This document shows, one piece after another, positions 2,550 to 42,410 of a stretch of 64,000 nt of DNA. Source of the DNA: Aeromicrobium sp. Root236. GTDB lineage: Bacteria; Actinomycetota; Actinomycetes; Propionibacteriales; Nocardioidaceae. The position numbers were made by a program, and so were the translations under genes. Within the stretch, counting starts at the first letter, position 1; each line of letters opens with the position of its first letter. Under the pieces are notes generated by a model. It was given only the letters and a program-made list of their open reading frames with translations, had not been told where the DNA came from and did no database searches. Where the stretch lies: NCBI RefSeq assembly GCF_001428805.1, contig NZ_LMIS01000001.1:1848976-1912975 (forward strand), in the 5' to 3' direction.

Positions 2550-3841
2550 GCGGACTCCCCCTTGACCTGCGTCACGGCGTCGACCGTGGACTGGTCGAGC
2601 GCGAACAGGTCGGCGAGCGCCTCGGCGTACGTGAGGTCGGCGCGGCCGTCGATGAGCTGCTGGACCCGGACGGTCGGGGCGTGGATGAGCTTCTCGGCGA
2701 CCCGGTGCAGGGCCTTGCGGACCGCGGCGAGCTCGTCGGCGGTCAGGTCGGGGAGCCGCGTCTCGATGCGTGCGAGCTCGGCGGCGACGACGTCGGTCGC
2801 CATCGTGCGCAGCGCGACGACGGTCGGCGTGATGTGCGATGCGGCCTTGGCGGCGAGGAACGTACGGACCTCGTCCTCGACGATCGCGCGCACCTGCTCC
2901 ACGTCGCCGGCGAGCTCGGTGTTCTCACCGAGTCGCGCGAGCACGACGAGGTCGATCAGGTCGATCCCGTCGACGTCGCGGACGCCGGGATCGATGTCGC
3001 GCGGCAGCGCCAGGTCGATCAGCGCCATCGAACGGCCGGCACTCGCGCGGGCGATGCGCTCACGGTCGAACACGACGCCGGTCGCGCCGGTGCAGCTGAT
3101 CAGCACGTCGGTGGCGGCGAGCTCGACGTCCATGGCCTCCCAGCGGACGGCGCTGACGCCGAACGTGGCGACCAGGGCGTACGCACGCTGGAACGTCCGG
3201 TTGGCAACCATGATGTGGCTCGGCGCGACGCCGCGATTGATCAGCGTGCGGACGGCCAGACTTGCCATCGTGCCGGCGCCGGCGACCAGGAAGCGGGTGT
3301 CCTCGGCGTCGACGACCTCACCGGCGGCGTCGAGGCCGGCCGTGACGATCGACGGGGCGAGCCGGTCGATGCCGGTCTCGGCGTGACCGCGCTTGCCGAT
3401 GCGCAGCGCCTGCTGGAACAGCGCGTTGAGCGCCGAGCCGACGGTCTGCTCGGCCTGGGCGCTGTGCAGCGCGTCGCGGACCTGACCGAGAATCTGGCTC
3501 TCACCGAGGATCATCGAGTCCATGCCGGCGGCGACGCCGAACAGGTGCGCGACCGCGGCCTCGTCGAAGTGGACGTAGACGTGGCGGACGAAGTCGTCGC
3601 GGTCGAGGCCCGAGTGCTCGGCGAGGAGGCGCGACACCTCTTCGACCGCACCGTGGAACCGCTCGGCCTCGACGTAGATCTCGACCCGGTTGCAGGTCGA
3701 GATGACGACCGACTCGGAGACGAACGGGGCCTCGAGGACGAGGTGCGAGAGCTTGACCGCGGCATCGGTGTCGAGCGACGCGCGCTCGAGCACGTCGATC
3801 GGCGCCGACTTGTGCGACATGCCAACCACCAGAACGCTCAT
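2546..3841 (-). CDS. hemA: Glutamyl-tRNA reductase
   Basis: Reduces glutamyl-tRNA(Glu) to glutamate-1-semialdehyde, the first committed step of C5 tetrapyrrole synthesis. 431 aa from the ATG that overlaps the rex stop (ATGA). The open frame extends further upstream but that part is antisense-like noise over rex. The catalytic Cys50 sits in [16 protein letters not shown] follows, and an NADPH-binding Rossmann segment ([15 protein letters not shown]) precedes the helical dimerisation domain. The actinobacterial rex-hemA-hemC-hemD order links heme supply to NADH/NAD+ state. Confidence 0.97.
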
Positions 3842-35259: not shown

Positions 35260-35283
35260 GTCCTTTCGACAGGCTCAAGGAGC
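35260..35283. repeat. Dispersed repeat, TTTCGACAGGCTCAAGG type (family A)
   Basis: CCTTTCGACAGGCTCAAGG lies immediately downstream of the glycosyltransferase stop codon, sharing its last base. Only one arm is present here. Other copies are at 51471-51531, 59514-59534 and 60126-60192. Confidence 0.6.
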
Positions 35284-36746
35284 TACCCGGGCACCTTGGC
35301 GGTGGCGGTGCCTTCGAGAGGGCCGTCCTGCAGCGTCACCGTGATGGTCCGGGGCGCCCGTCGAGCGGCGCCGCGCAGCGTGACGGCCCAGCCGGACCCC
35401 GGGTAGACCCGTTCGCTGCCCATGCGGGACCGGAACACCGCCGGCTCCCCCGCATGCTCCACGTCGGCGACGTCGCCGTCGGTCTTGACCTCGATCACCG
35501 GATCGACCGGATCGACGTTCGGGAACCACGCAGCCACGTCGAGCACCAGGTCCGCCCCGTCGGCGTGCGAGCCGCGGACCTGGACCTTCGCCGCGGTCTG
35601 CTCCGCCGTCAGCACGTACGCCTCGGGCGGCACCGGGTCGCTCTGCCAGCCCGGCAGGTACGACGTGAGGCCAGCCGGCTCGACGCCCGAGGGATGCATC
35701 TCGGACTGCATGCCCTCAGCGCGTACGTAGCGCCAGATCGCCTCGCGGTCACCGTTGGCGAACAGCGCGTAGAGCACGCGGTACTGCGCCGGCACCTCAC
35801 GCGCGTACCGATCGGCCGGTGCGGCCTCCACGATGCGAGGCACCCGGTCGACGAGGGCATCGAGGTACGCATCGTCGGCCCGTTCGAGCTTGAGCACCGA
35901 GTTGGGGATGTTGTAGCGGAGGTACTGCAGGGCCCGCTCGGCTCGTACGTCCGGCAGCGGCGCGAGCACGTCGAGCACGGCGTCGATCGCGTCCTGCCGG
36001 GCGTGCACGGCCTCGGCGGTCACCTGACCCTGCGAGATCGACGACTCCTGGCGACGCCACGTGTAGCCCATGACCCCGGAGATGTCGATGCCGTCGGCGT
36101 CGCGGTACGCGGTCGCCGTGACGATCTGGTCGCCGGCGAGCAGCACCGTGGGAAACGACAGCTGCGTCGCGTCCCAGAACGTACGGCGGAAGATCTTGGC
36201 GCACGCGACGGCGTTGACGAGGACGTCGGGACGCTCGGCGAGAGTCGTGTGCCGGGCGGGCCGGGCGTGGAGGCTGCGGATCCAGGCCGCCGGCGGACGG
36301 ATCGCCGTGCCCTCTTGGCGCTGATAGGGCATCACGGCGACGTCCGAACCGGTCTCCTCGAGCGCGTCCATCGCCGCCCGCAGGCCACCGCGGGTCAGCC
36401 AGTCGTCGGCGTCGAGGAACGTCAGGAACTCCCCCGTCGCCACCGCGACGGCCGCCCGCCGGGCCTCGCCGACACCGGCGTTGGCCTGGCTCAGCACCGT
36501 CACGCGGGCGTCTGCCTTGGCGTGCCGCTGGGCGATCGCGAGGCTGCCGTCGGTCGAGCCGTCGTCGATCACGACGATCTCGACGCGCCGGTAGTCCTGC
36601 TTGCGCGCGGAGGCCAGGCACTCGTCGAGGAAGGCCTCGCCGTTGAAGACCGGCACGACGACGCTCAGCAGCGGGCGCGAGCGCTCGCGCCACCGGTCCA
36701 GCGGCATCGTCACGGCTCGCCGCAGACGCCTCCGAAGTCGAGCCAC
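35283..36746 (-). CDS. Family 2 glycosyltransferase
   Basis: 487 aa. The GT-A domain begins LLSVVVPVFNGEAFLDECL, with VVIDDGSTDGSL and the DXD-type FLDADDWL. The C-terminal ~230 residues are beta-rich and shared with teichoic-acid-type or capsule transferases. I chose the GTG at 36746 because TATGCT lies six bases upstream; an ATG at 36707 is an alternative. Cytosolic face enzyme transferring an activated sugar to a surface polymer precursor. Divergent from the methyltransferase operon that contains a pyruvyl transferase, which suggests joint work on a cell-surface glycan. Confidence 0.85.
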   Translation of the reverse strand: MARLRRRLRRAVTMPLDRWRERSRPLLSVVVPVFNGEAFLDECLASARKQDYRRVEIVVIDDGSTDGSLAIAQRHAKADARVTVLSQANAGVGEARRAAVAVATGEFLTFLDADDWLTRGGLRAAMDALEETGSDVAVMPYQRQEGTAIRPPAAWIRSLHARPARHTTLAERPDVLVNAVACAKIFRRTFWDATQLSFPTVLLAGDQIVTATAYRDADGIDISGVMGYTWRRQESSISQGQVTAEAVHARQDAIDAVLDVLAPLPDVRAERALQYLRYNIPNSVLKLERADDAYLDALVDRVPRIVEAAPADRYAREVPAQYRVLYALFANGDREAIWRYVRAEGMQSEMHPSGVEPAGLTSYLPGWQSDPVPPEAYVLTAEQTAAKVQVRGSHADGADLVLDVAAWFPNVDPVDPVIEVKTDGDVADVEHAGEPAVFRSRMGSERVYPGSGWAVTLRGAARRAPRTITVTLQDGPLEGTATAKVPG

Positions 36747-36752
36747 GCGCCG

Positions 36753-36776
36753 AGCATAGCGACGAGTGCGTACCGT
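36753..36776. promoter_or_regulatory. Divergent leaderless -10 pair (glycosyltransferase / MidA operon)
   Basis: TATGCT on the minus strand (36758-36753) ends six bases before the GTG of the glycosyltransferase. TACCGT on the plus strand (36771-36776) ends six bases before the ATG at 36783. The two starts are only 36 bases apart, so the two promoters share upstream DNA. Confidence 0.6.
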
Positions 36777-36782
36777 GATCGC

Positions 36783-37712
36783 ATGACGAGAGGGCCGCTC
36801 CCGTGGCGTGAGGCGTGGGAGCGGGCGCTGTACGCCGAGGGCGGGTTCTTCCGGACCTCGAAGCCCGCCGAGCACTTCCGCACCAACGTGCACGTCCCCG
36901 CGTTCGCCGGCGCGATCGCCGAGCTCGTCCGGCGGACAGGGGCGCGAACGGTCGTCGACCTCGCCGCCGGAAGCGGTGAGCTGCTGACCGCACTCCGCCC
37001 GCTGGTCGACGACGTCGAGCTGGTCGGCGTCGAGCTGGCCACCAGGCCTGATGACCTGCACGCGTCGATCGACTGGCTGCCCGTGTTGCCGGACGAGGTC
37101 GACGGCCTGCTGATCGCGAACGAGTGGCTCGACAACGTCCCGTGCGACGTCGTGGAGCTCGGCGACGACGGCGTCGTACGTGAGGTGCTCGTCGACACGG
37201 CGACCGGCGAGGAGACGCTCGGCGATGCGTACGACTCGGCGTGGCTGCGCGAGTGGTGGCCGCTGGCGGAGCCCGGCGACCGGGCCGAGGTGGGCGAGAC
37301 CCGCGACGCTGCCTGGGCCGACGCCGTCTCACGGGTCAGCGGCATGGCCATCGCGATCGACTACGGCCACACCCGCGACGACCGGCCGCCGTTCGGCAGC
37401 CTGCGGTCGTACGCCGACGGGCGTGAGGTCGACGTCGTGCCGGACGGCAGCCGCGACGTCACCGCCCACGTCGCCGTCGACTCGGCCGCCTCGACCGCGG
37501 GAGCGACCCTGTTCAGGCAGCGCGACGCACTCGCTCACCTCGGCCTCGACGCGTCGCGCCCTCCGCTCGACCTCGCGCACGCCGATCCGGGTGCGTACGT
37601 CCGGGCGTTGTCCGCGGCGGGCGAGACCGGCGAGCTCACGGCCGTTGGCGGGCTCGGTGACTTCTGGTGGCTCGTCACGGACACCCTCGGCCATGGAAGA
37701 CTGAACCCATGA
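36783..37712 (+). CDS. MidA/NDUFAF7-family SAM-dependent methyltransferase
   Basis: 309 aa COG1565-type protein. The SAM-binding strand-loop is VVDLAAGSGELL, followed by ELVGVELA, and the family-typical LLIANEWLDNVPCDVVEL and AIDYGHTRDDR. N-terminal PWREAWERALYAEGGFF fits the family. Mitochondrial NDUFAF7 dimethylates one arginine of NDUFS2 (the NuoD homologue) during complex I assembly. A NuoD-like gene ends this same three-gene operon, making that protein the natural candidate substrate. Overlaps the next gene as ATGA. Confidence 0.85.
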   Translation: MTRGPLPWREAWERALYAEGGFFRTSKPAEHFRTNVHVPAFAGAIAELVRRTGARTVVDLAAGSGELLTALRPLVDDVELVGVELATRPDDLHASIDWLPVLPDEVDGLLIANEWLDNVPCDVVELGDDGVVREVLVDTATGEETLGDAYDSAWLREWWPLAEPGDRAEVGETRDAAWADAVSRVSGMAIAIDYGHTRDDRPPFGSLRSYADGREVDVVPDGSRDVTAHVAVDSAASTAGATLFRQRDALAHLGLDASRPPLDLAHADPGAYVRALSAAGETGELTAVGGLGDFWWLVTDTLGHGRLNP

Positions 37713-39190
37713 CACGGCGGCTGCTGATCCGATCCGGCAAGGACCCGTTCACCCCCGTGGTCGCCGAGTCGACGTTGACGCAGGACGTGTTCAACAGCAA
37801 CAGCGGCAACTACCTGTTCCAGCACTCGGTCTGGAAGGCGCTCGCGACCGACGCGGCCGAGCTCGTCTCCAACAGCACGCTGTCGGAGCGCGTGCCTCCG
37901 GCTCACGGTGACGCCCGGCGCATCAACGACGAGTTCGACCACTTCGTCATCCCGATGGCCAACGCGTTCCGCCCCGAGTTCGCACCGCGCCTCGACCGGC
38001 TCAGCGAGCTGCTGGAAGACCTCACGATCCCGGTCACGGTCGTCGGCATCGGAGCGCAGGCCGCTCACGGCCAAGGGGTCGAGTCGCTCGAGCCCGTCGC
38101 CAGGACGGTCAAGAAGTTCGTCGGCCTCGTCCTGGACCGGTCGGCCTCGATCGGCGTACGCGGCGAGTTCACCAAGTCGTACCTGCTCGGGCTCGGCTTC
38201 CCCGAGGCATCCGTCGAGGTCATCGGCTGCCCGTCACTGTTCCTCCATGGCCGCGACTTCCGGGTCGACAAGAAGGTCGACTCGATCTCGGTCGACAGCC
38301 CGCTCGCGCTCAACCTGACTCCCGAGGTCGCCGGCATCGGGGCGTTCGCCACGGCGCAGGCCGCACGGCACCCCAACCTCACCTACATCGGCCAGGACGC
38401 GCACGACCTGCGCATGCTGCTGTGGGGCACGCCGTTCCCGCACGTCCACGACCCGCTCGTGCCGGTCCACCTCGACCACCCGCTCTACCAGTCCGACCGC
38501 ATCAGGCTCTTCCTCGACACCTGGACCTGGTACGACTTCCTGGCGACGCAGGACTTCGCGTACGGCACCCGGTTCCACGGCAACGTCGCGGCGCTCCTGG
38601 GGCGTACGCCGGCGCTGCTGCTGGCCCACGACTCGCGCACGCTGGAGCTCGCCGAGTACCACCGCATGCCCTACACGCTCATGCCGGAGTTCACCGCCGA
38701 GCTCAAGGCCGAGGACCTCTACGAGTCGACCGACATGGCCGAGTTCAACGCCGCCCTCCCGGAGGGGTTCGACCGCTACACCGCGTTCCTCGAGCGCAAC
38801 GGACTCGAGCACATCTGGACCGAGGGCAACGGCACGGGCGACTTCGACGAGCGCCTCGCCGCCGCGAAGTTCCCGCCGCCCGTGCACCCCTTGATCGCCT
38901 CCGACGGTCACGAGGTCGCCTCGCGGCTCAAGTGGCTGCGCGACGGCATGGTCCTCGACATCACGCGCCACCCCCAGGCGTACGAGCACCCGTTCCCGCA
39001 CCCGCCGTGGAGCGGCGCGGGCAGCCGGCACGCCCGCATCCAGGCGACGACGGCCGAGAAGCTCGCGACGCAGAAGCGGCAGATCGACGAGCTGTACGCC
39101 CGGCTCGAACGGGTCGAGCGCAACTCGCCGCGTGGCCTCACCAAGCGATTCATCCGATGGGTGCAGAGGCTCTTCGGGCGGCACCCATGA
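37709..39190 (+). CDS. Polysaccharide pyruvyl transferase-family protein
   Basis: 493 aa. It has the CsaB/WcaK-like two-lobed fold: an N-terminal [14 protein letters not shown] region, a central [11 protein letters not shown] and [13 protein letters not shown], and a late [29 protein letters not shown]. This last motif marks the family (G-x-R-x-H-x-N). The C-terminal ~60 residues form a coiled coil ([21 protein letters not shown]) and a basic amphipathic tail that could bind membrane. It would attach ketal pyruvate to a surface sugar. Overlaps midA and the NuoD-like gene by four bases each. Confidence 0.85.
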
Positions 39191-40329
39191 CCGAGGTCAC
39201 CGCGAGCGTCGGCACGGGCTTCGCCACGACCGACATGGTGCTCAACATCGGCCCGCAGCACCCGGCGACCCATGGCGTCCTGCGCCTGCGCCTGACACTC
39301 GACGGCGAGCGCGTCGTGGCGTGCGAGCCGATCATCGGCTACATGCACCGCGGCGCCGAGAAGCTGTTCGAGGTGCGCGACTACCGGCAGATCATCATGC
39401 TGGCCAACCGGCACGACTGGCTCAGCGCGTTCTCCAACGAGCTGGGCGTCGTGCTCGCGGTCGAGGACATGCTGGGCATGGAGGTGCCCGAGCGAGCGAC
39501 CTGGATCCGTACGCTGCTCGCCGAGCTCAACCGGGTGCTCAACCACCTGATGTTCCTCGGCTCCTACCCGCTCGAGCTCGGCGCCATCACGCCGATCTTC
39601 TACGCGTTCCGCGAGCGCGAGACGATCCAGGAGGTCATGGAGGAGGTCTCCGGCGGGCGGATGCACTACATGTTCAACCGCGTCGGCGGCCTCAAGGAGG
39701 ACATCCCGGCCGGCTGGACCGGGCGGGCGTCGGCGGCGATCGCGACCGTGCGCACCAGGCTGCAGGAGCTCGAGGACCTGATCTTCGGCAATGAGATCTT
39801 CCGGGCCCGCACCCGTGGGGTCGGCGTGCTCTCGACCGAGCTCGTCGAGGCGTACGGGGTGTCCGGTCCGATCGCCCGTGCGTCAGGACTCGACATGGAC
39901 CTGCGGCGCGACGAGCCCTACCTCGCGTACGGCGAGCTGCAGGACGTGCTGCGCGTGCCGGTGCGCACCGACGGTGACTGCTACGCCCGGTTCGCCGTGC
40001 TGCTGGAGCAGACCAAGGTGTCGCTCGACCTCGCCGACGCCTGTCTGGCCCGGCTCGCCGACATCGCACCCGGACCGGTCAACGTGCGGCTGCCCAAGAT
40101 CCTCAAGGCCCCCGAGGGCTCGACGTACGTGTGGACCGAGAACCCGTTGGGGCTCAACGGCTACTACCTCGTGTCGCGCGGCGAGAAGACCCCGTGGCGG
40201 CTCAAGCTGCGCACGGCGTCGTTCAACAACGTCGCGGTGCTGCCCGAGATCGTGGGTGGCGCCGTCGTGGCCGACCTCGTCGCGATCCTCGGCTCGACGT
40301 TCTTCGTGGTCGGCGACGTCGACAAGTAA
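39187..40329 (+). CDS. Stand-alone NuoD-like protein (NADH-quinone oxidoreductase 49-kDa subunit family)
   Basis: 380 aa, homologous to the complex I subunit next to the quinone site. [15 protein letters not shown] and HRGAEKLFE are conserved, including Arg55, equivalent to the NDUFS2 arginine methylated by NDUFAF7. The universal quinone-site Tyr in the D-Y motif is Trp (NRHDWLSAF), the C-terminal GEVDR is GDVDK, and the loop before YLVS differs from canonical NuoD. No other nuo gene is in the window. Either a paralogue with altered quinone chemistry or a subunit of another redox complex. Confidence 0.85.
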
Positions 40330-40757: not shown

Positions 40758-42410
40758 ATGCCCGACTCCACGCCCCGCACCCCGACCCTGATCGACACCC
40801 TCGCCGAGGAATGGCTCGACACCATGCTCGACCTCGAGCCCGAGCTCCACATCCACCTCGGCCGCCCGGGCCGCGAGGCCGACTACGCCGACCGGTCGCC
40901 CGACGGCGCGGCGGCGGCCGCCGAGGCGGCCAAGGCGATGCTGGCGCGCGTACGCTCGGCAACCCCCGTGGACCAGGTCGACCGCGTCACCCAGGCCGAG
41001 CTCATCCGCACCTTGAGCCTCGATGTCGAGAAGCACGACGCCGGGTTCTGGCAGCGCGACCTCAACGTCATCGCCTCGCCGGGCCAGGACCTCCGCGACA
41101 TCTTCGACCTCATGAGCACCGACACCGACGACGGCTGGGCGCACGTGGCCCGCCGCATGCACAACGTCCCCGGCGCCATGGCCGGCTACCTCGACTCGCT
41201 GCGGGCCGGCATCGCAGCCGGCAACGTCCCGGCGATCCGCCAGGTGCGCGAGGTCGCCGACCAGGCCCGCAAGCAGGCCGGCGCCGACAGCTTCTTCCTC
41301 TCGCTGGCCGCCCGCGCCGACGTGCCCGCCTCGCTCAAGGGCGAGCTCGAGGCCGGAGCCCGGGCAGCGACCGAGGCGTACGCCGGCATGGCGGAGTTCC
41401 TCGACCGCGAGCTCGCGCCGCACGCGCCCGAGGCGGACGGTGTCGGCCGCGAGCACTACGCCCTCGCGTCGCGCTACTTCGTCGGCGTCGAGATCGACCT
41501 CGACGAGACCTACGAGTGGGGCATCGAGGAGCTCGCCCGCATGGTCGAGGAGCAGGAGCGCATCGCCGACCAGATCCTGCCCGGGGCCACGGTCGCCGAG
41601 GCGATCCAGCACCTCGACGCCGACCCGGCGCGCAAGCTGCACGGCACCGACGCGCTGCAGGCGTGGATGCAGGAGACCAGCGACCGGGCCGTCGCCGACC
41701 TCGGGCGTACGCACTTCGACATCCCCGAGCCGATGCGCCGCCTCGAGTGCATGATCGCGCCGACCCAGGAAGGCGGCATCTACTACACGCCGCCGAGCGA
41801 GGACTTCGAGCGCGCGGGCCGGATGTGGTGGAGCGTGCCCGAGGGCATCACCGAGTTCGACACGTGGCGCGAGCTGACGACGGTCTATCACGAGGGTGTG
41901 CCGGGCCATCACCTCCAGTGCGGCCTCGCGGTCCACAACAGCGCCGAGCTCAACGGCTGGCGGCGCTTCAACTGGAACTCCGGGCACGGCGAGGGCTGGG
42001 CGCTCTACGCCGAGCGGCTCATGTCGGACCTCGGCTACCTCGACGACCCGGCCGACCGGCTCGGCATGCTCGACGGCCAGCGCATGCGTGCCGCCCGCGT
42101 CGTCATCGACCTCGGCGTGCACCTCGGCAAGCCCAAGCCCGACGGCAGCGGCACGTGGACCGGCGACGACGCGTTCCCGTTCCTGTCCCAGCACGTCAAC
42201 ATGAATGAGCCGTTCATCCGCTTCGAGTCCAACCGCTACCTCGGCTGGCCCGGGCAGGCACCGTCCTACAAGGTGGGCCAGCGCAAGTGGGAGCAGCTCC
42301 GCGACGAGTGGGTCGCCGCCAACGGCACCGACCTCAAGGAGTTCCACCGCCAGGCACTGGCCGTCGGCAGCGTCGGGCTCGGCACGCTCCGCGACACCCT
42401 GCTGAGCTGA
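40758..42410 (+). CDS. DUF885 metallohydrolase/peptidase-like protein
   Basis: 550 aa, mostly helical. The DUF885 hallmark is YHEGVPGHHLQ near residue 380, a HExxxxH-like zinc site, followed by the downstream glutamate in GHGEGWALYAERLM. No signal peptide, so cytosolic. Members are annotated as uncharacterised zinc peptidases of the M3/thermolysin-like fold; the substrate is unknown. Leaderless ATG shared with a divergent small gene. Confidence 0.85.
   Translation: MPDSTPRTPTLIDTLAEEWLDTMLDLEPELHIHLGRPGREADYADRSPDGAAAAAEAAKAMLARVRSATPVDQVDRVTQAELIRTLSLDVEKHDAGFWQRDLNVIASPGQDLRDIFDLMSTDTDDGWAHVARRMHNVPGAMAGYLDSLRAGIAAGNVPAIRQVREVADQARKQAGADSFFLSLAARADVPASLKGELEAGARAATEAYAGMAEFLDRELAPHAPEADGVGREHYALASRYFVGVEIDLDETYEWGIEELARMVEEQERIADQILPGATVAEAIQHLDADPARKLHGTDALQAWMQETSDRAVADLGRTHFDIPEPMRRLECMIAPTQEGGIYYTPPSEDFERAGRMWWSVPEGITEFDTWRELTTVYHEGVPGHHLQCGLAVHNSAELNGWRRFNWNSGHGEGWALYAERLMSDLGYLDDPADRLGMLDGQRMRAARVVIDLGVHLGKPKPDGSGTWTGDDAFPFLSQHVNMNEPFIRFESNRYLGWPGQAPSYKVGQRKWEQLRDEWVAANGTDLKEFHRQALAVGSVGLGTLRDTLLS

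Follow-up and report, generated by a model that had tools for sequence, protein, structure and literature searches.

We propose that the NuoD-like protein encoded in the window (the whole 64,000-nucleotide stretch of DNA analysed here, from Aeromicrobium sp. Root236) serves as the D subunit, NuoD2, in a second complex I whose genes (nuo2) are split between two sites, that the MidA-type methyltransferase encoded beside it methylates Arg55 of NuoD2, and that the polysaccharide pyruvyl transferase (PPT) gene between the two is an inserted cassette. We consider this reading likely as a whole. Two operons, a residue switch and a conserved linkage support it at the level of sequence, and from these we infer an active MidA, with Arg55 as its substrate, and the assembly of NuoD2 with the nuo2 products.

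A three-gene operon and a second complex I

The midA gene (36783..37712, plus strand) encodes a 309 aa SAM-dependent methyltransferase of the MidA type (COG1565/DUF185). It is followed on the same strand by the PPT family gene (37709..39190, 493 aa, PF04230) and by nuoD2 (39187..40329, 380 aa, PF00346), which encodes a 49-kDa/NuoD subunit. Each of the two gene pairs, midA/PPT and PPT/nuoD2, overlaps by 4 bases with a shared ATGA, and all three products exceed their Pfam cut-offs (PF02636, 52.4 bits against a cut-off of 23.3; PF04230, 63.4 bits; PF00346, 243 bits). Coordinates, junctions and Pfam matches thus confirm the arrangement given in the preliminary description, which had also correctly placed a target-type Arg in the NuoD-like protein (Arg55, within HRGAEKL). 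The first protein carries the motifs DLAAGSGEL, ANEWLDNVP and IDYGH, has profile matches to 4f3n, 1zkd and 5ztz, and has the MidA fold; the third aligns over its full length with 49-kDa chains in the PDB (best E 1.8e-83). The PPT protein belongs to its Pfam family, with a CsaB equivalog score of 15.8 vs. a cut-off of 213.1 bits, and no match to solved structures was seen at E <= 1.

A leaderless promoter ahead of midA is plausible. The candidate is a −10-like hexamer, TACCGT (36771..36776, plus strand), 12 bases 5′ of the midA ATG. Among the six midA starts inspected (the window, L078 and L196-L199), a TANNNT was found by eye at −12 or −13 in four of the five relatives (L078, L196, L197 and L199, the last only if the ATG at 3616 is the start and not the called GTG) and was absent from these positions in L198. 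As background, TANNNT occurs at −13 to −11 of 9/617 plus-strand ATGs in the window. On the other side of this candidate promoter lies a divergent gene of the glycosyltransferase-2 type (35283..36707, minus strand, with a predicted start), a neighbour outside the module whose homologue in L078 is a PF00535 protein. Downstream of nuoD2 is a gene for a DUF885 protein (40758-42410; PF05960, 520 bits), and L078 has a similar protein in that place.

The source genome is a single contig of 3.92 Mb, and the closest named relatives of the window NuoD are from Aeromicrobium. Besides the window gene, the genome has one canonical nuoD; it has one PF02636 gene and two nuoB genes. The second nuoB sits in the operon nuoA2-B2-C2-H2-I2-J2-K2-L2-M2-N2 (about C1:1774180-1782656, minus strand), roughly 105 kb from nuoD2. 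This operon is compact, with C2 running directly into H2; subunits A, B, C and H-N are encoded together, as in an 11-subunit nuo2, and D, E, F and G are absent from its ten genes. The window NuoD is therefore the sole other D subunit available in the genome. Judged from this gene complement, the NuoD-like gene very probably supplies the D subunit missing from a second complex I of 11 subunits (A2, B2, C2, D2 and H2-N2), and the protein earlier called an orphan has a home in the same genome. The same reading also accounts for solitary genes that carry the annotation 'NADH-quinone oxidoreductase subunit D'.

Linkage of midA and nuoD2 across genomes

Within the order, D2 (at least 515 bits) and NuoH2 (at least 459 bits) were each found in 51/147 genomes, and these were the identical 51; the next D2-like scores, at 384 bits or less, belong to a family, f2, that is considered below. 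MidA is present in each of the 51. Its distance from D2 is 1474-14473 bp (median 1986) in 51/51, on the same strand in 50, and the separation of D2 from H2 is 87-273 kb in the 40 genomes that have both on one contig. In the genus itself, D2, NuoH2 and MidA are all present in 2/14 genomes and none of the three is found in the other 12. These genomes are related, so that 51/51 does not represent 51 independent events and kinship inflates the counts for the order; a Fisher value for the association presupposes independence and is not to be read as a probability. MidA occurs in 64/147 order genomes in total: 51 with D2, nine of f2 and four without D2. Among the matches listed, the latter are four of the 66 order genomes that have neither D2 nor its divergent f2 form, D2*; one is a 20-bit match and three are decayed. 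MidA remnants of about 250 aa, with the SAM-binding glycine motif lost, are seen at L105-L107 (G041, G082 and G014), which have no D2. Because the gene caller missed some MidA ORFs, loci were placed by their tblastn and HMM matches.

Across the phylum, we surveyed 198 genomes, leaving out our own, and counted as D2-type only NuoD matches of at least 348 bits. D2-type NuoD was present in 78/198, and in 49 of these 78 nuoH2 lies within 2 kb of D2, which provides direct support for the subunit assignment. In the remaining 29, where D2 is away from nuoH2, MidA is at most 10 kb from D2 in 24; the five exceptions (G281, G295, G306, G170 and G291) are all assemblies of at least 80 contigs. Of the 49 genomes with D2 in the operon, 13 have MidA at a distance of up to 30 kb, 17 have it elsewhere and 19 gave no match. 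Ten of the 13 have MidA 7.7-8.4 kb from D2, a spacing that would be compatible with midA lying at the distal end of the nuo2 operon. PF02636 was unmatched in 22 of the 78 genomes with D2-type NuoD, and nine phylum genomes have PF02636 with no D2-type NuoD at the 348-bit cut-off. The 22/78, and the 17/49 with MidA elsewhere, indicate that D2 can dispense with MidA or that MidA is not always linked to it. MidA is thus associated with nuo2 in a considerable share of the phylum, and a D2 that lies outside the operon usually comes with MidA.

A tree of 92 sequences separates all D2, including those of f2, from canonical NuoD (support 0.93) and nests f2 within the D2 clade of the class (support 1.0). 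The rooting left canonical NuoD as a non-clade, and only the split of D2 from the rest and the inner clades were used. The D2 of the class are not joined with those of the f16/f51/f55 group in a single clade, suggesting that MidA may have been paired with a D2 outside the operon early, or more than once.

The PPT gene behaves differently from the genes that flank it. It is next to D2 in three of 80 named loci, all from Aeromicrobium, plus G064 and the window; it is present in L078 and L197-L199 and absent from L196 and from 76 named loci outside Aeromicrobium. Elsewhere the gap between midA and nuoD2 holds bPH_2, peptidase/AMP-ligase or glycosyltransferase genes, or nothing, and in the Aeromicrobium MAG RYN_203 midA directly overlaps nuoD2. 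PPT therefore looks like a lineage-specific insert, a late passenger by the evidence of gene order, and as a functional partner it was rejected on the same grounds. The preliminary description had named non-conserved gene order in related genomes as the observation that would count against its module. The linkage of MidA and NuoD2 is conserved; the order including PPT is not.

The arginine switch and the probable target of MidA

By alignment with Thermus Nqo4, Arg55 of NuoD2 (codon 39349..39351, plus strand) corresponds to Thr64 and Trp78 (codon 39418..39420, plus strand) to Tyr87. Arg and Trp were read in 40/40 phylum D2 rows, and Thr and Tyr in 20/20 canonical NuoD rows; the canonical NuoD of the source genome itself has Thr and Tyr, and all D2 and f2 rows of an additional alignment have Arg and Trp. 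The opposite position in NuoB, checked against Thermus R83 in an alignment to 2fug_6, is Arg in 19/19 canonical rows and Thr in 23/23 NuoB2 rows (21 genomes, two of them read twice). All 21 genomes that gave NuoB2 rows were read for D2 or D2* as well; for canonical NuoD and NuoB, rows of both proteins from one genome cover G000 and G041 only. D2 with Arg and NuoB2 with Thr are the reverse of the canonical pair, and D2 thus fits NuoB2. To judge from these alignments, the switch is the strongest argument for pairing D2 with nuo2, and for Arg55 as the sole probable target of the NDUFAF7 type among the NuoD proteins of the genome.

NuoD2 departs from the textbook quinone site: the His is kept and Tyr87 (Thermus numbers) is replaced by Trp78. 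We take this His, His38 in Thermus NuoD numbering, to be a quinone-site residue beside Tyr87. With Trp78 in every D2 row read, the acceptor or the quinone chemistry of nuo2 may differ.

The activity expected of a MidA/NDUFAF7 enzyme is symmetric dimethylation of the HRG Arg of NuoD. In mitochondria, NDUFAF7 dimethylates Arg85 of NDUFS2, within HRG beside cluster N2 (PMC3829151, PMC8042128), and Arg55 of NuoD2 is by homology the same residue. The corresponding Arg of E. coli is described as unmethylated (PMC8042128), and a PF02636 search of the control genomes of E. coli and Thermus gave no match. The role of prokaryotic MidA is given in PMC12455994 as inferred only in silico as of 2025. We propose that the D2 Arg lies next to the N2 iron-sulfur cluster where D meets B, with the Thr of NuoB2 opposite, and that MidA would methylate Arg55 during assembly of D2 with B2, as NDUFAF7 does in mitochondria; encoding the two side by side would bring MidA and nascent NuoD2 together, and the PPT cassette would have entered between midA and nuoD2. 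Covariation of the Arg with MidA was considered and rejected, as the Arg is present in 20/20 D2 proteins from genomes without and 20/20 from genomes with a MidA match (a chosen set of 40 of the 78 D2, comprising 20 of the 22 without MidA and 20 of the 56 with it). The Arg alone is thus weak evidence for MidA action. The earlier suggestion that MidA acts on this NuoD stands as a probable reading, carried by a linkage that is conserved independently of PPT and by NuoD2 being the sole NuoD of the genome with the target Arg.

Three other explanations were weighed. NuoD2 might be an exchangeable isoform that replaces canonical NuoD in the 14-subunit complex I, a view favored by the location of its gene outside nuo2 in the 51 D2 genomes of the order and nine others of the same class, and by the presence of canonical nuoD and nuoB in its own genome. 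Such an exchange would, however, make two Arg meet at N2, given the Arg of canonical NuoB in 19/19, and the converse pair, canonical NuoD with NuoB2, would leave no Arg there at all; with D2 and NuoH2 also confined to exactly the same 51 order genomes, we regard the isoform as very improbable. A surface-glycan role shared by MidA, PPT and the NuoD-like protein, as first suggested for this operon, could appeal to the 4-base overlaps in the window and in G064, to the same gene order in L197 and L199 and to the adjoining glycosyltransferase gene. It is scarcely credible with PPT beside D2 in its own genus only, missing from L196 and the 76 named loci outside Aeromicrobium, and with other inserts in its place elsewhere.

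MidA might also modify another protein or a nucleic acid, its position beside nuoD2 being inherited synteny. Genes of similar sizes flank the pair in many loci of the order; we take these to be folate genes, panC and clpC. The Arg, as noted, does not covary with MidA, and expression of Wolbachia MidA in E. coli is reported to result in DNA methylation (PMC12455994). On the other side, 10 genomes of other families have MidA near D2 in a different setting, at 7.7-8.4 kb and with D2 inside nuo2, and the few MidA matches listed for order genomes that lack D2 and D2* (4/66) are the weak one and the three decayed ones described above. We judge another target to be unlikely, and NuoD2 remains the substrate that we favor.

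Reduced forms of nuo2 and comparison with known systems

Divergent D2* was found in at least 30 of the 49 f2 genomes; the closest named matches of the L101 D2* are from Tessaracoccus, followed at lower rank by Arachnia and other Propionibacteriaceae. A second, shortened NuoB is present in 15/15 D2*-bearing f2 genomes tested, and G012, which lacks D2*, has one NuoB. A second NuoA was absent from these same 15 genomes (15/15), vs. two NuoA in five controls with intact nuo2. The D2-less genome G041 gave a second NuoA match (84.7 bits), so the NuoA count is not specific by itself; G208 gave three. No f2 genome has a match of NuoH2 grade. At 14 f2 loci around the second NuoB, nuoB2* was called in 13, nuoC2* as well in 12 and nuoI2* as well in 11, and no nuo2 membrane subunit was called at any of them. 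The full nuoB2*-C2*-I2* loci are L178-L182, L184, L186, L188, L189, L191 and L192; L185 is without I*, L187 without C* and I*, and L183 gave no call. The cluster cysteines of B* (CC..C..C) are kept in all 13 f2 sequences aligned, and both ferredoxin-like motifs of I* in the 8/11 that have a complete called start. D2* keeps the HRG-type Arg, but the His and Tyr of the quinone site are gone. It lies away from the nuoB2*-C2*-I2* cluster, with MidA 91-250 bp from it in 9/30 f2 genomes (among the matches listed).

These data, with loss of the membrane arm judged from A, H and the gene neighbourhood, raise the idea that nuo2 of f2 (Propionibacteriaceae-like) is a soluble, quinone-free Fe-S module, NuoB2*-C2*-D2*-I2*, perhaps serving as a ferredoxin relay. 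In our judgement the chances for and against it are about even; if true, this would be a complex I core without a membrane. In G208, which belongs to a family other than f2, D2 and MidA are encoded elsewhere and an eroded nuo2 is found at L190 (G208:C1:443000-462900): H2 is 123 aa and A2 93 aa, B2, C2 and I2 are of normal size, and J-N are uncalled in 20 kb (four NuoH matches are listed, of which the best was inspected). This genome is a halfway case of nuo2 reduction. Together with the f2 genomes that lack a second NuoA (15/15), it led us to reject the view that D2 occurs only where nuo2 is complete.

Genes for the alpha and beta subunits of a 2-oxoacid:ferredoxin oxidoreductase (KorAB) are divergent to nuoB2* at L178:8112-11110. 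As a candidate electron donor of nuo2, KorAB was set aside with little in its support: by eye, korA is about 4-16 kb from nuoH2 in six genomes (G004, G006, G008, G018, G085 and G088), against which G064 has nuo2 and no KorA, KorA is some 300 kb away in G000, and KorA occurs in 133/147 genomes, many of them without nuo2.

In the open-licence PMC literature we found no description of a link between MidA and nuoD2, and this conserved partner is apparently undescribed; a detached nuoD2 is already known from Streptomyces. Actinomycetes would offer a clean test of MidA action: of two complexes I in one cell, only one has the target Arg, and it is to this one that the sole MidA gene is tied. The system resembles Streptomyces nuo2 (nuoA2, B2, D2 and H2-N2) in lacking E, F and G and in being contiguous apart from its detached nuoD2, and differs from it, as described in PMC3765725 and PMC8388888, in having nuoC2, an inserted PPT and MidA by nuoD2. 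With NDUFAF7/MidA of human and Dictyostelium it shares the MidA fold and motifs and a substrate-type Arg in HRG by N2; unlike these, our MidA is bacterial, is encoded with its presumed substrate and is shorter (309 aa vs. 414 in the Dictyostelium PDB chain). In Thermus, the Thr of Nqo4 is compensated by Arg83 of Nqo6 (NuoB), which fills the same space (PMC8042128). The two states of the Arg switch between Thermus and Yarrowia described there, D-Thr/B-Arg and D-Arg/B-Thr, are the same two seen here, with the difference that here both coexist in one genome, in two complexes.
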